A DNA stretch of 40,284 bases from an uncultured Gammaproteobacteria bacterium. GTDB lineage: Bacteria > Pseudomonadota > Gammaproteobacteria > Poriferisulfidales > GCA-002705445. The stretch lies in the NCBI GenBank assembly GCA_913050095.1, contig CAJXAV010000009.1, forward strand, positions 1 through 40,284, written 5' to 3'. Below are positions 2,584 to 15,132 of the stretch, piece by piece; the stretch's first letter is position 1; each line of letters opens with the position of its first letter. The notes beneath the pieces were generated by a model. The model was not told the DNA's origin, made no database searches, and was given only the letters and a program-made list of their open reading frames with translations. Position numbers and translations under genes: made by a program.

Positions 2584-2612
2584 TTGAATGCTTAACCTGT
2601 TAGTTCTATAAT
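2584..2612 (+). promoter_or_regulatory. Predicted sigma70 promoter of the gltD riboswitch leader
   Basis: TTGAAT (2584-2589) and a perfect TATAAT (2607-2612) are separated by 17 bp. The predicted start near 2619 lies about a dozen nucleotides before the riboswitch P1 stem. The copy before gltB has the same ATTGAATG -35 block. Confidence 0.75.
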
Positions 2613-2630
2613 AAACAATTACATAGAAAC

Positions 2631-2680
2631 ACGTTCATCCTAAGTTTAAGGACGGAAGTAAGCAAAAAGCTGAAGGAACG
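2631..2680 (+). promoter_or_regulatory. glnA-class glutamine riboswitch aptamer (gltD leader)
   Basis: The segment matches the glnA (glutamine) riboswitch core as I recall it. P1 is CGTTC (2632-2636) with GAACG (2676-2680). P2 is TCCT with AGGA (2638-2641 and 2649-2652). The conserved GACGGAAGTA block (2651-2660) follows. P3 is AGC with GCT (2661-2663 and 2669-2671), and the conserved GAAGGAACG closes the motif (2672-2680). The GGAAGTA/GAAGG strands correspond to the loop-E region of this class. The class is best known from cyanobacteria and marine metagenomes, upstream of nitrogen genes. A second copy sits before gltB, at 10531. Confidence 0.93.
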
Positions 2681-2723
2681 CACCAAACTTTAATCTAGAG
2701 TTTGGTGAGACATCATCAAACTC
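2681..2723 (+). promoter_or_regulatory. Two-state expression platform of the gltD riboswitch
   Basis: Directly after P1, with no linker, CACCAAACT (2681-2689) pairs perfectly with AGTTTGGTG (2699-2707), forming hairpin A. The same 3' strand, extended to GAGTTTGGTGA (2698-2708), also pairs with TCATCAAACTC (2713-2723) across a GACA loop, giving an 11-bp hairpin B with one G-U pair. The two cannot coexist. No run of T follows, so a terminator is not evident. Hairpin B ends 20 nt before the gltD ATG, which fits control of translation. Which state glutamine favours is inference. Confidence 0.8.
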
Positions 2724-2730
2724 TATTTAA

Positions 2731-4140
<1,410 letters not shown>

Positions 4141-10451: not shown

Positions 10452-10493
10452 GGCGATATAAGTAATATCTAGGTATAAATATTCAATATTTAT

Positions 10494-10521
10494 TGAATGA
10501 AACGCTATCAGGTCCTATACT
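10494..10521 (+). promoter_or_regulatory. Predicted sigma70 promoter of the gltB riboswitch leader
   Basis: TTGAAT (10494-10499) and TATACT (10516-10521) are separated by 16 bp, and transcription would start just before the riboswitch P1 at 10532. The same ATTGAATG -35 block precedes the gltD copy, so promoter and riboswitch look like a duplicated or co-inherited unit. Confidence 0.7.
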
Positions 10522-10530
10522 GTATGTAGT

Positions 10531-10579
10531 ACGTTCATCCTTTGAAAGGACGGAAGTAGGCTGTAACGCTGAAGGAACG
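10531..10579 (+). promoter_or_regulatory. glnA-class glutamine riboswitch aptamer (gltB leader)
   Basis: This is the second copy of the motif at 2631. P1 is CGTTC (10532-10536) with GAACG (10575-10579). P2 is TCCTT with AAGGA (10538-10542 and 10546-10550). The conserved GACGGAAGTAGG block follows. P3 is GGC with GCT (10559-10561 and 10568-10570), then GAAGGAACG. Compared with copy 1, P2 and P3 differ in sequence and loop length but keep their pairing, as expected of a functional RNA, while the core blocks are identical. Confidence 0.94.
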
Positions 10580-10623
10580 CACCAAACTTTAAGCCTAGAG
10601 TTTGGTGAGATATCATCAAATTC
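10580..10623 (+). promoter_or_regulatory. Two-state expression platform of the gltB riboswitch
   Basis: Hairpin A pairs CACCAAACT (10580-10588) with AGTTTGGTG (10599-10607). Hairpin B pairs GAGTTTGGTGA (10598-10608) with TCATCAAATTC (10613-10623) across a GATA loop. Relative to the gltD copy, hairpin B has one C-to-U change that turns a G-C pair into a G-U pair, and its loop differs, so pairing is kept. P1 again abuts hairpin A with no spacer. No T-run follows. Confidence 0.8.
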
Positions 10624-10639
10624 ATAGGTAAATTAATTA

Positions 10640-10663
10640 ATGACTAAATTTACTGAAATATGA
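10640..10663 (+). CDS. Possible 7-codon leader peptide overlapping the gltB start
   Basis: ATG at 10640 opens a frame for MTKFTEI ending in TGA at 10661-10663, whose first bases overlap the gltB ATG at 10660 (ATGA). It lies 17 nt after riboswitch hairpin B, close to the 20-nt spacing seen before gltD. An AGG about 11 nt upstream is the only hint of a ribosome site. It may couple riboswitch-controlled initiation to gltB, or be chance. Confidence 0.35.
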   Translation: MTKFTEI

Positions 10664-13600
10664 AAGACAAGTTTAAGAAAATTACCGGTTTATATGATGA
10701 AAGCTTTGAAAAAGATAGCTGCGGATTTGGCTTAATCTCAAATATTGATAACAAACCAAGTCATTGGTTAATAAATACTGCAATAACAGCTCTAGAAAGA
10801 CTAGCTCACAGGGGTGCTGTTGGGGCAGACGGTACCTCGGGTGACGGATGCGGAATTTTATTTAAAATTCCAGAATTCTTTTTTAGATCAATAGCAAATG
10901 AAGAAAAAATAAATATAGCTAAAAACTTTGCTATTGGTATGTTTTTTTTAAACCCAGAAATTAAATATAGAAAAAACTCTATTGAAGTAGTTGAAAAAGT
11001 TTTAAAGGAACACAACTTTGTATTAGCGGGATGGAGAGAAGTTCCTGTTAATAAAGAAATTTGCGGCGAAGATGCATTAAAGACTTTACCACATATTAGT
11101 CAAGCTTTTGTAAATCCGCCTGAAAATATAGATCCAAAAGATATTGAATCTAAACTTCTTGTTATTAGAAGAAAAATAGAAATTTTGATTTCAAAAACAA
11201 ATGATAACGTATTTTATATCACAAGTTTTTCATCAAAAGTTATTTTATACAAAGGCATGATAATGCCAAAACATCTTGCAAAATTTTATTTGGATTTATC
11301 AAATAAAAAACTTGAAACATCACTATGTGTTTTTCACCAGAGATTTTCAACGAATACAACACCTCAATGGAGCCTTGCTCAACCTTTTAGAATGCTAGCT
11401 CACAATGGTGAGATTAATACCATTAGGGCAAATAGAAATTGGTCGCAAGCTAGGGCTAGTATTTTCAAAACATCAAAAATACCTGAGCTAAGTGAATTAA
11501 AGCCTTTAGTTTCAATGGGAGGCTCCGACTCAAAAAGTCTTGATAACATGTTAGAACTATTAACTTTAGGTGGTGTGGACTTATTTAAAGCCATTAAACT
11601 TCTTATTCCTCCAGCTTGGAAAAGTATACCTAAAGACGATTCAGATCTTAAAGCCTTTTATGAATATAATGCAAAGCATATGGAGTCATGGGATGGTCCT
11701 GCCGGCATAGTTTTGACAGATGGAAGATATGCAGCATGTGTGACAGATAGGAATGGATTGAGACCAGCTAGATATATAATTACAAAAGACCGCCATATAA
11801 CTGTTGCTTCTGAAATTGGTGTTTATGATTACGACGAAAAAGATATTGTAGAAAAAGGTAAACTTGGTCCAGGACAGATTATTGCAATAGATACAGTTGA
11901 TGCAAAGATCTTATATTCTCACGATATTGATAATATTTTGAAGAAAAGATGTCCTTATAAAGAATGGATGGACCGTGGCGCAGAATCAATGAGGAAAATT
12001 ATTCCTGATAAATTTCCAGAATTAGAATTCTTAAATGATATTGAAATTAAACAGTATGAAAAGATGTTTAATATGACATATGAAGAAAAAGATCAAATTT
12101 TAAAACCACTTTCAAAATTGAGCCAGGAAGCTATCGGTTCAATGGGTGATGACACTCCGTTTCCTGTTTTATCTAGCGAAATTAGATCTTTATATGACTA
12201 TTTCAGACAGCAATTCGCACAGGTGACAAACCCACCTATTGACCCAATAAGAGAAAGTAATGTGATGTCGCTAGAGACATATCTTGGGCCAGACTTGAAT
12301 GTTTTCGAAGAAGGTTCTAAACATGCCCATAGATTAACAATAGAATCACCAATTTTATCTTATAGAAAATTTAAACAGCTCCAAGAGCTAAAAAATAAAA
12401 AATTTACATATCAAGTCTTAGACTTGAATTATGATGCTGATATAAAACTAAAAGATGCAATTATTAATTTAACAAAAGAAGCTATTAAAGCCGCGAAGAA
12501 TAATAAAGTATTTATTATTTTAAGTGATAAAAATATTAAAAAAGATAAATTACCTATACATGCTTTACTAGCGACAGGAGCAGTACATCATGCGCTTATT
12601 AAAAACGGGTTAAGAACAAAAATTAATATTATTGTAGAGACAGCTACTGCTAGAGATTCTCATCATTGTGCGACTTTAATTGGCTATGGTGCTACTGCAA
12701 TATATCCTTATTTATCATATCAATCTTTGAATAATATGATACTTGAAAAATCAGAACATAATTCAGAATTTTATGAAGCAACTAGAAACTATAGGCAAGG
12801 TATCAATAAAGGCTTATATAAGATTTTATCCAAAATGGGAATCTCGACTATAGCAAGTTATAGAGGTTCTCAGTTATTTGAATGTATTGGATTAAATGAT
12901 GAAATTGTTGATTTATGTTTTTGCGATACTACAAATAGAATCTCTGGCACTACCTTCGACAATATTCAAAGCGATCAAATTAAACTTGCAAAAACTGCTT
13001 GGAGCCAAAGAAAAAATATTAGGCAAGGCGGTTTACTAAAATATGTTCATGGAGAAGAGTTTCATGCATATAACCCAGATGTAGTCAAAACTCTTCAAGA
13101 TGCTGTTAAAAGTGGTAAGTATGAAGACTACGAAAAATATAGCCAAGAAGTTCACTCTAGAGAAAAAATGGTTATAAGAGACATGTTGGATTTTAAAAGC
13201 TCAAGAAAACCAATACCTCTTAATGAAGTTGAGCCTATTGAAAAAATTCTTTTAAGGTTTGACTCTGCAGGGATGTCATTAGGGGCCTTATCGCCAGACG
13301 CACATGAAACGCTTGCTCAAGCTATGAATAAAATGGGTGGAAGATCAAACTCTGGAGAAGGTGGGGAAGATCATAAAAGATTTGGTACAGATAAAAATTC
13401 AAAAATTAAGCAAGTTGCTTCAGGAAGATTTGGAGTTACACCTCATTACTTAGTAAATGCTGAAGTAATACAGATTAAAATTGCTCAAGGTGCTAAACCT
13501 GGAGAAGGAGGCCAACTTCCAGGCGACAAGGTTGATAAACTTATAGCAACATTAAGATATGCTAACCCAGGTATAACACTAATTTCTCCACCACCTCATC

Positions 13601-15132
13601 ATGATATATATTCAATAGAAGATTTAGCACAACTTATTTTTGACCTAAAACAAGTTAATCCCAATGCTTTTGTTTCTGTTAAATTAGTTGCGGAAGCAGG
13701 TGTTGGGACAATAGCGGCCGGAGTTGCAAAAGCCTATGCGGACTTTATCACTATATCTGGATATGATGGTGGAACGGCAGCAAGCCCGTTATCAAGTATA
13801 AAATATGCTGGCGGCCCTTGGGAAATGGGTCTTTCTGAAACACATCAAACTTTAAGAGCAAATAATTTAAGAAAAAATGTAAGACTCCAAGCTGATGGGG
13901 GTTTAAAAACTGGGATTGATGTTATAAAAGCAGCCATACTAGGTGCAGAAAGTTTTGGATTTGGTACTGGACCCATGATTGCGATGGGATGCAAGTATCT
14001 AAGAATTTGTCATTTAAACAATTGCGCAACAGGAGTAGCTACGCAAAACCAAGTGCTAAGAAAGTATCACTTTATTGGAAAAGACGAGATGGTAATAAAT
14101 TATTTTAAATTTATTGCTGAAGAAACAAGAAGAATTTTAGCTAGTTTAGGATATAAAAAATTATCTGATGTTATTGGTCAGACAGATATTCTTGAAATAA
14201 AAGAACTCAGTAATAATAAATCACAAAATTTAATAATAGATCCAATAATATCTGATGCAAATGTTGATAGTGAAATTTCACATGTATGCCAAGTAGATAG
14301 CAATGAGCCTTGGGATAAAGCAATCCTATCAAATAGTATTAATAATGACTTAAAAGATGCAATCGAAAATAATTTAGGAGGTAATTTTAATTATTTAATT
14401 AAAAATACTGATAGATCGGTTGGTGCAAGTGTTTCTGGAATGATAGCGAGAAAACATGGGAACTACGGCATGTCAGATAATCCTATTAATATAAAATTTA
14501 AAGGTACTGCTGGACAAAGCTTTGGAGTTTGGAATGCCGGAGGATTAAACATGATTTTGGAAGGCGATGCAAATGATTATGTTGGAAAAGGAATGGCTGC
14601 AGGAGAAATAATTGTTTATCCACCTAAGGATAAAAGTTATAAAGCAAAAGAATCCGTTATTATCGGAAATACATGTATGTATGGAGCAACTGGCGGAAAA
14701 TTATATGCTTCAGGTATTGCAGGTGAAAGATTTGCTGTTAGAAATTCCGGAGCAACTGCTATAGTTGAAGGTGTTGGAGATCATGGGTGTGAATACATGA
14801 CAAATGGAACTGTAATAATTCTAGGTAATACCGGTATTAATTTTGGGGCAGGTATGTCCGGTGGTTTTGCAATAGTCCTTGATGAAGATGGTGATTTCAA
14901 AGACAAATATAATCCAGAGTTAGTAGAAGCTATAAAAATTAATGTAATTAAATACCCAGAACATGAAAAATTTTTAAAGAACTCAATAATTGATTATGTG
15001 AATAAAACAAAAAGTGAGTGGGGGCAAATAATTCTTAATGATTTTGATAAATATTTAGAAAAATTTTTAATTGTGAAGCCTAAAAATTTAAAAATTGAAG
15101 ACTTATTCAATAAAGAAAGTGTTGCTGCCTAA
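10660..15132 (+). CDS. gltB: Glutamate synthase large subunit
   Basis: GltB releases ammonia from glutamine and channels it to the FMN site, where 2-oxoglutarate becomes glutamate. The 1490 residues contain the N-terminal amidotransferase domain with nucleophile Cys21 in DSCGFGL (residues 1-20 being the removed propeptide), HRGAVGADG and RFSTNTTPQW. A central domain comes next, then the FMN domain with GGRSNSGEGGED, the 3Fe-4S cysteines in CKYLRICHLNNCATG, and the C-terminal glycine-rich beta-helix. The start fits the usual propeptide length. It is not next to gltD. dnaG begins 2 nt after its stop, so replication and transcription genes appear to lie downstream of a glutamine-controlled leader. 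Confidence 0.98.
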   Translation: MKDKFKKITGLYDESFEKDSCGFGLISNIDNKPSHWLINTAITALERLAHRGAVGADGTSGDGCGILFKIPEFFFRSIANEEKINIAKNFAIGMFFLNPEIKYRKNSIEVVEKVLKEHNFVLAGWREVPVNKEICGEDALKTLPHISQAFVNPPENIDPKDIESKLLVIRRKIEILISKTNDNVFYITSFSSKVILYKGMIMPKHLAKFYLDLSNKKLETSLCVFHQRFSTNTTPQWSLAQPFRMLAHNGEINTIRANRNWSQARASIFKTSKIPELSELKPLVSMGGSDSKSLDNMLELLTLGGVDLFKAIKLLIPPAWKSIPKDDSDLKAFYEYNAKHMESWDGPAGIVLTDGRYAACVTDRNGLRPARYIITKDRHITVASEIGVYDYDEKDIVEKGKLGPGQIIAIDTVDAKILYSHDIDNILKKRCPYKEWMDRGAESMRKIIPDKFPELEFLNDIEIKQYEKMFNMTYEEKDQILKPLSKLSQEAIGSMGDDTPFPVLSSEIRSLYDYFRQQFAQVTNPPIDPIRESNVMSLETYLGPDLNVFEEGSKHAHRLTIESPILSYRKFKQLQELKNKKFTYQVLDLNYDADIKLKDAIINLTKEAIKAAKNNKVFIILSDKNIKKDKLPIHALLATGAVHHALIKNGLRTKINIIVETATARDSHHCATLIGYGATAIYPYLSYQSLNNMILEKSEHNSEFYEATRNYRQGINKGLYKILSKMGISTIASYRGSQLFECIGLNDEIVDLCFCDTTNRISGTTFDNIQSDQIKLAKTAWSQRKNIRQGGLLKYVHGEEFHAYNPDVVKTLQDAVKSGKYEDYEKYSQEVHSREKMVIRDMLDFKSSRKPIPLNEVEPIEKILLRFDSAGMSLGALSPDAHETLAQAMNKMGGRSNSGEGGEDHKRFGTDKNSKIKQVASGRFGVTPHYLVNAEVIQIKIAQGAKPGEGGQLPGDKVDKLIATLRYANPGITLISPPPHHDIYSIEDLAQLIFDLKQVNPNAFVSVKLVAEAGVGTIAAGVAKAYADFITISGYDGGTAASPLSSIKYAGGPWEMGLSETHQTLRANNLRKNVRLQADGGLKTGIDVIKAAILGAESFGFGTGPMIAMGCKYLRICHLNNCATGVATQNQVLRKYHFIGKDEMVINYFKFIAEETRRILASLGYKKLSDVIGQTDILEIKELSNNKSQNLIIDPIISDANVDSEISHVCQVDSNEPWDKAILSNSINNDLKDAIENNLGGNFNYLIKNTDRSVGASVSGMIARKHGNYGMSDNPINIKFKGTAGQSFGVWNAGGLNMILEGDANDYVGKGMAAGEIIVYPPKDKSYKAKESVIIGNTCMYGATGGKLYASGIAGERFAVRNSGATAIVEGVGDHGCEYMTNGTVIILGNTGINFGAGMSGGFAIVLDEDGDFKDKYNPELVEAIKINVIKYPEHEKFLKNSIIDYVNKTKSEWGQIILNDFDKYLEKFLIVKPKNLKIEDLFNKESVAA

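Follow-up and report, generated by a model that had tools for sequence, protein, structure and literature searches.

A glutamine-I cassette ahead of gltD and gltB in a marine gammaproteobacterial genus, with a candidate three-hairpin relay to the start codon

How might glutamine bound at the base of an aptamer be felt at the start codon of a gene? The structure of the glutamine-I aptamer is solved, and an account of how ligand binding at the P1 base reaches the gene was not found in the literature examined. The question is raised by a window of 40,284 nucleotides (the whole stretch of DNA analysed), a contig of the 1.08 Mb genome of a small marine gammaproteobacterium, in which two glutamine-I aptamers reside in the 5' UTRs of nitrogen-assimilation genes, one at 2632..2680 (+ strand; Rfam RF01739, 58.6 bits, E 1.4e-10) ahead of gltD and one at 10532..10579 (+ strand; 58.4 bits, E 1.7e-10) ahead of gltB. 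Both exceed the Rfam gathering threshold for RF01739 (35 bits), match the model over its full length and include the P1/P2/P3 junction with CGGAAGUA, GAAGGAACG and C60. With the aptamer numbering mapped onto the window from the crystal construct (PMC5393176), G22-G23 correspond to 2654-2655 (gltD) and 10552-10553 (gltB), while P1 is formed by 2632-2636 and 2676-2680 in the gltD aptamer and has its 3' strand at 10575-10579 in the gltB aptamer. The two are predicted to bind glutamine and are the only glutamine-I aptamers of the whole genome; the window has no covariance-model match to glutamine-II (RF01704).

The downstream genes encode the small and large subunits of glutamate synthase, gltD (2749..4140, + strand; TIGR01318, 710 bits) and gltB (10660..15132, + strand; NF008730, 2426 bits). 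Each is preceded by a promoter-like site (a consensus match only): TTGAAT-17-TATAAT at 2584..2612 (+ strand) for gltD, with the RNA probably starting at about 2619, and TTGAAT-17-TATACT at 10493..10521 (+ strand) for gltB, the latter also found in a relative without the cassette (G007). The aptamers begin 19 nt (gltD) and 10 nt (gltB) past these sites. For comparison, 16 leaders were extracted from nine species, seven of them gltD leaders, and these seven place the conserved gltD start at 2749. The sequence-only reading had hairpin B (below) end 17-20 nt before an ATG in both leaders. In gltD, the ATG in question (2743) is an in-frame extra present in few relatives; in gltB, the ATG at 10640, 16 nt past hairpin B, begins no more than a frame of seven codons that runs into the gltB start, and this start, at 10660, lies 35 nt past the hairpin. 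The 7-codon frame (10640-10663) reads MTKFTEI, ends at an ATGA over the gltB start and is seen in this species only.

Between aptamer and gene, both leaders form two hairpins that exclude each other, since the strand AGAGTTTGGTG is common to both. Hairpin A is 12 bp in length and extends over 2681..2707 in gltD (+ strand; 2681-2692 with 2696-2707; -13.1 kcal/mol, z -6.3) and 10580..10607 in gltB (+ strand; -13.9 kcal/mol, z -5.4). Hairpin B has a core of 10-12 bp and extends over 2697..2724 in gltD (+ strand; 2697-2708 with 2713-2724; -15.2 kcal/mol, z -4.4) and 10594..10628 in gltB (+ strand; core 10597-10607/10614-10624 plus a CCUA/UAGG extension; -16.3 kcal/mol and z -6.1 when extended). 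No shuffle matches the real folding energy of either hairpin; the mutually exclusive pair is thus present as the sequence-only reading described it, far beyond shuffles, with hairpin A starting at 2681 and 10580, immediately after the P1 3' strand. That reading had also found no T-run after the hairpins, and neither leader indeed has an intrinsic terminator (a GC-rich hairpin followed by a U-run); intrinsic termination was dropped as an output for lack of any terminator-like site.

The 16 leaders support the hairpins as an expression platform by conservation, and of the output once worded as translational control or RNA stability they favor the translational part over terminator control. The first eight pairs of hairpin A are invariant and its closing pair, C60-G, is present in all 16 leaders; at positions 8-9, U-A/U-G is exchanged for U-G/U-A in two. 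Positions 0-8 of hairpin B are likewise paired in 16/16, where every change is to G-U or U-G and all single-sided changes preserve pairing. Comparison of homologous leaders, which the sequence-only reading had proposed, therefore finds the pairing of A and B kept and two-sided covariation essentially absent across 16 leaders, as both hairpins are nearly invariant; the support for A and B is conservation and stability, not two-sided covariation.

The link to the ligand lies in a single base. In solved structures, the G23-C60 'linchpin' pair forms only when glutamine is bound (PMC11477058, PMC5393176). C60 is C2681 in the gltD leader and C10580 in the gltB leader, in each case the base with which hairpin A begins. 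This base is thus wanted both by hairpin A and by the aptamer in its bound state, and a ligand that draws C60 into the G23-C60 pair should weaken A and favor B. This is the reverse of the earlier suggestion that a ligand-stabilized P1 stacks on A and blocks B, which is disfavored because the first base of A goes to G23. When C60 is withheld in ViennaRNA, the A/B balance moves 2.3-3.1 kcal/mol towards B in 16/16 leaders, and the modelled share of B rises from 42 to 99% (gltD) and from 54 to 99% (gltB), both leaders being near balance beforehand. C60 accounts for only one of the 12 pairs of hairpin A, and the modelled balance is uneven among leaders: whether or not C60 is available, A prevails in those of G001, G005 and G010, and B in G002 gltB and G004 gltD.

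The sequence-only reading had no output step, and this is supplied by a third hairpin (C), which uses the right arm of B, covers the start codon, excludes B and is compatible with A. In gltD, hairpin C (2716..2752, + strand; -8.9 kcal/mol, z -2.7) pairs UCA-A-ACUC (2716-2723) with GAGU-A-UGA (2745-2752) and has an inner stem (2727-2732/2736-2741). In gltB (10621..10664, + strand; -6.7 kcal/mol, z -1.8, weak alone), UUCAUA pairs with UAUGAA over the start codon, with the inner stem GGUAAAUU/AAUUUACU, and the probability that the AUG is unpaired is 0.05 with A formed and 0.44 with B formed. When folded from the right arm of B to the ATG, most leaders pair UCA-A-ACUC with GAGU-A-UGA round the start codon and frequently form an inner stem as well, so that hairpin C contains or adjoins the start codon. 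The register differs in G006 gltD and G010 gltB, the hairpin is imperfect in G002 and G004 gltD, and significance alone is not reached by every leader in the spacer shuffles. Summed over leaders and compared to shuffled spacers, the arm-to-start pairing has z 6.8 and the minimum free energy z -5.8, values that overstate the evidence as the 16 leaders come from nine related species and shuffles ignore relatedness. In 16/16 leaders, the start is harder to open when A is formed than when B is (mean cost 7.9 vs 4.5 kcal/mol), and the summed A-minus-B difference is 73.6 compared to 23.4 +- 6.5 in shuffles (7.8 sd above, subject to the same relatedness). When the arms of hairpin C are exchanged among leaders, the real sum is reached in 8 of 2000 permutations. 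GAGT stands immediately 5' of the ATG in about 10 of the 16 leaders vs 1 of 274 genes in 320 kb of the relative G001, the gene-start background used here; the gltB and gltD genes read that lack the cassette never have it there. Hairpin C thus has the support of shuffles, of swapped strands and of the genome background.

No Shine-Dalgarno (SD) sequence at a usable distance is evident in the window leaders, and SD sequestration was dropped for this reason; SD-like 4-mers are found ahead of only 60/274 G001 genes vs 22/274 in the background. Hairpin A ends some 41 nt ahead of the conserved start in gltD and some 52 nt ahead of it in gltB, placing its 3' arm away from an SD position. A leader peptide after GGTGA was also dropped, as no frame or start is conserved among the 16 leaders. 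In G004 gltB (L018), ATA stands in place of the conserved start ATG; translation probably begins instead at an ATG in the same frame, two codons further upstream, with the GAGT then inside the ORF.

Since hairpin B can coexist with neither A nor C, A and C are compatible, and C60 is claimed by both hairpin A and the bound aptamer, the three hairpins may be read as a relay. Without glutamine, C60 would be free to close hairpin A, A would hold the shared strand and leave the right arm of B free, and this arm would fold onto the start region, forming hairpin C and hindering ribosome entry. With glutamine, C60 would enter the G23-C60 pair and A would lose its closing pair; the shared strand would then form hairpin B with the right arm, C would be blocked and the start would open. 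The glutamine riboswitches studied so far switch on with glutamine (PMC6316151), and the ON direction would suit glutamate synthase, an enzyme that consumes glutamine, and agree with what is reported for the cyanobacterial glutamine riboswitches (PMC6316151). That the cassette between the promoter and start of gltD and gltB is a translational ON switch acting through such a three-hairpin relay is given a little better than an even chance.

A related arrangement is noted in marine phages. Viral contigs were scanned with the aptamer only, the platform being disregarded, and among the matches listed are 89 distinct leaders with an SD and an ATG, of which 59 (again among the matches listed) form a helix of at least 4 bp that is closed by C60 and includes the SD strand. 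The C60-G pair of these leaders is invariant, while the positions that follow change on both sides (position 62: C-G 47, U-A 5, U-G 6, A-U 1; position 63: C-G 38, U-A 18, U-G 3). The leaders form 4.22 bp with their own strands vs 3.28 +- 0.10 when 5' strands are swapped, and the real average is attained in 0 of 1000 permutations. These patterns support a shared plan, with the sequestering hairpin closed by the base whose pairing depends on ligand, and argue for ON switching. The phage hairpins resemble hairpin A of the window in following directly on P1; they differ in that the phage 3' arm reaches the SD itself, whereas the 3' arm of A is an intermediate strand that would have to pair in B before the start is exposed.

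Marine viral contigs very often carry glutamine-I riboswitches (L255-L370; at least 120 matches), mostly before short ORFs. Several of these ORFs start with a YRGV-like N-terminus, which may resemble DUF4278 / GS inactivating factor proteins. The 13-mer CACCAAACTTTAA is common to the window leaders and three viral contigs; a 15-mer, GGAACGCACCAAACT, was set aside as its 42 viral matches are mostly chance, with three genuine tandem aptamers among them. The published glutamine riboswitch of the Methylophilales phage Melnitz, said to control tmRNA, lies partly across the 3' end annotated for that RNA (MZ577097.1, about 46390-46590; L371:490-690) and is followed by CACTTAACC..GGGGAGAGTG-TT-ATG, a C60-closed SD hairpin that precedes a short unannotated + strand ORF (MTLYQQWCYLKAQKEY...); this small ORF looks like the regulated gene.

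Other explanations of the cassette differ in direction, in the regulated step or in whether it switches at all. The window may house an OFF switch, in which bound P1 stacks on a slightly shortened A and stabilizes A and hence C, such that glutamine represses gltBD. The geometry allows for coaxial stacking, as A2682 directly follows the G23-C60 pair, and hairpin A without its C60 pair still has -10.5 (gltD) and -11.3 kcal/mol (gltB). C60, however, is unable to pair with G23 and the shared strand at once, the C60-closed hairpin of the phages covers the SD region and thereby predicts ON, and the glutamine riboswitches studied are ON switches (PMC6316151), all of which leave repression rather unlikely.

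Instead of initiation, hairpins A and B could affect the processing or stability of the RNA or Rho-dependent termination, with C a by-product of AU-rich spacers. This would suit leaders in which an SD is not evident and a hairpin C that is moderate alone (gltB z -1.8), but the joint shuffle, swap and genome-background tests support C, which in most leaders takes in the start codon or lies right beside it; such a role is considered quite unlikely. A near-invariant protein or small-RNA binding site, formed by A and B and carried with the aptamer, would require no switching between the alternative pairings. It would be consistent with how little A and B vary between gltB and gltD or between species and with the uneven modelled A/B balance, yet right-arm changes preserve pairing in the core of B and the C60 overlap recurs in phage platforms of other sequence, rendering a mere binding site very unlikely.

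The preferred reading, a relay ending at the start codon, draws on a cassette shared by most of the genus, the relatives being marine MAGs and single cells, some of which are deposited as 'uncultured Thiothrix sp.'. The cassette is found ahead of gltD and/or gltB, in at least one copy each, in 9 of 11 genus genomes examined. The G008 assembly is without gltBD, G007 has the cassette at neither gene and G003 lacks it at gltD only. Where it is absent (both G007 genes and G003 gltD), the promoter is kept almost directly at the ATG, with a -10-like TAATAAT also ahead of the ATG of both gltD genes. The cassette (aptamer, A, B and C) thus comes and goes as a unit, and the gene tree leaves both gain and loss possible. 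Outside the genus, the aptamer is rare: among 369 class genomes, only one more, G050, whose platforms differ, exceeds the Rfam cut-off and another falls short of it, and in a 398-genome phylum sample the RF01739 match is in the window's own genome only. An 18-mer search of genome contigs returned 23 matches, of which 8 are in unrelated taxa, about the chance expectation in 257 Gb. In G050, a gammaproteobacterium of 0.9 Mb that belongs to another family, glutamine-I aptamers stand in tandem (L012, L019; G050:C1:170154-170276), followed by an ORF that reads like glnA (MSKNTLKLIADSKAEWVDLRFTDT); the genome also has a terminator-like hairpin plus TTTTT after the aptamer at L003 and a phage-type CATCT/AGATG hairpin at L020.

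The window aptamers are of the same Rfam family as the glutamine-I RNAs of cyanobacteria and marine metagenomes, of which gifB of Synechocystis is the tested example, and comparative work already lists glutamate synthase genes as targets (PMC2864571). They differ from these in their host, a gammaproteobacterial genus, and in their output, a candidate three-hairpin relay to the start codon. A published description of such a platform for glutamine-I was not found in the literature examined, of which coverage is incomplete, and the novelty of the platform is not proven. Anti-antisequestor translational riboswitches use a chain of mutually exclusive stems that ends at the translation start; by contrast, the window leaders would sequester the start codon region and have no evident SD. 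Glutamine-II (Downstream-peptide, RF01704) also has glutamine as ligand and is probably a translational ON switch (PMC6698751), with a pseudoknot aptamer unlike those of the window. The gltD (SRC-18-1) motif of Negativicutes (PMC8632094) is also upstream of gltD, has a possible RBS-covering hairpin after it, and is set apart by description as a separate motif of other taxa without an assigned ligand.

Glutamine riboswitches are described in a review as restricted to cyanobacteria (PMC6316151); the window, by contrast, presents a case for their presence on gltBD in a gammaproteobacterial genus that can be identified. The C60-closed hairpin, found in dozens of phage leaders with compensatory changes and as hairpin A here, provides a testable link from G23-C60 to gene output. 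The fuller proposal, that G23-C60 triggers a three-hairpin relay onto an SD-less start, switches both gltBD subunits ON and exemplifies a rule by which many platforms of the class are closed by C60, is advanced tentatively, with chances put just short of even. If true, the rule would be general: one and the same base would report the ligand and close the sequestering hairpin, and the relay would show how a riboswitch could act at a start without an evident Shine-Dalgarno sequence.
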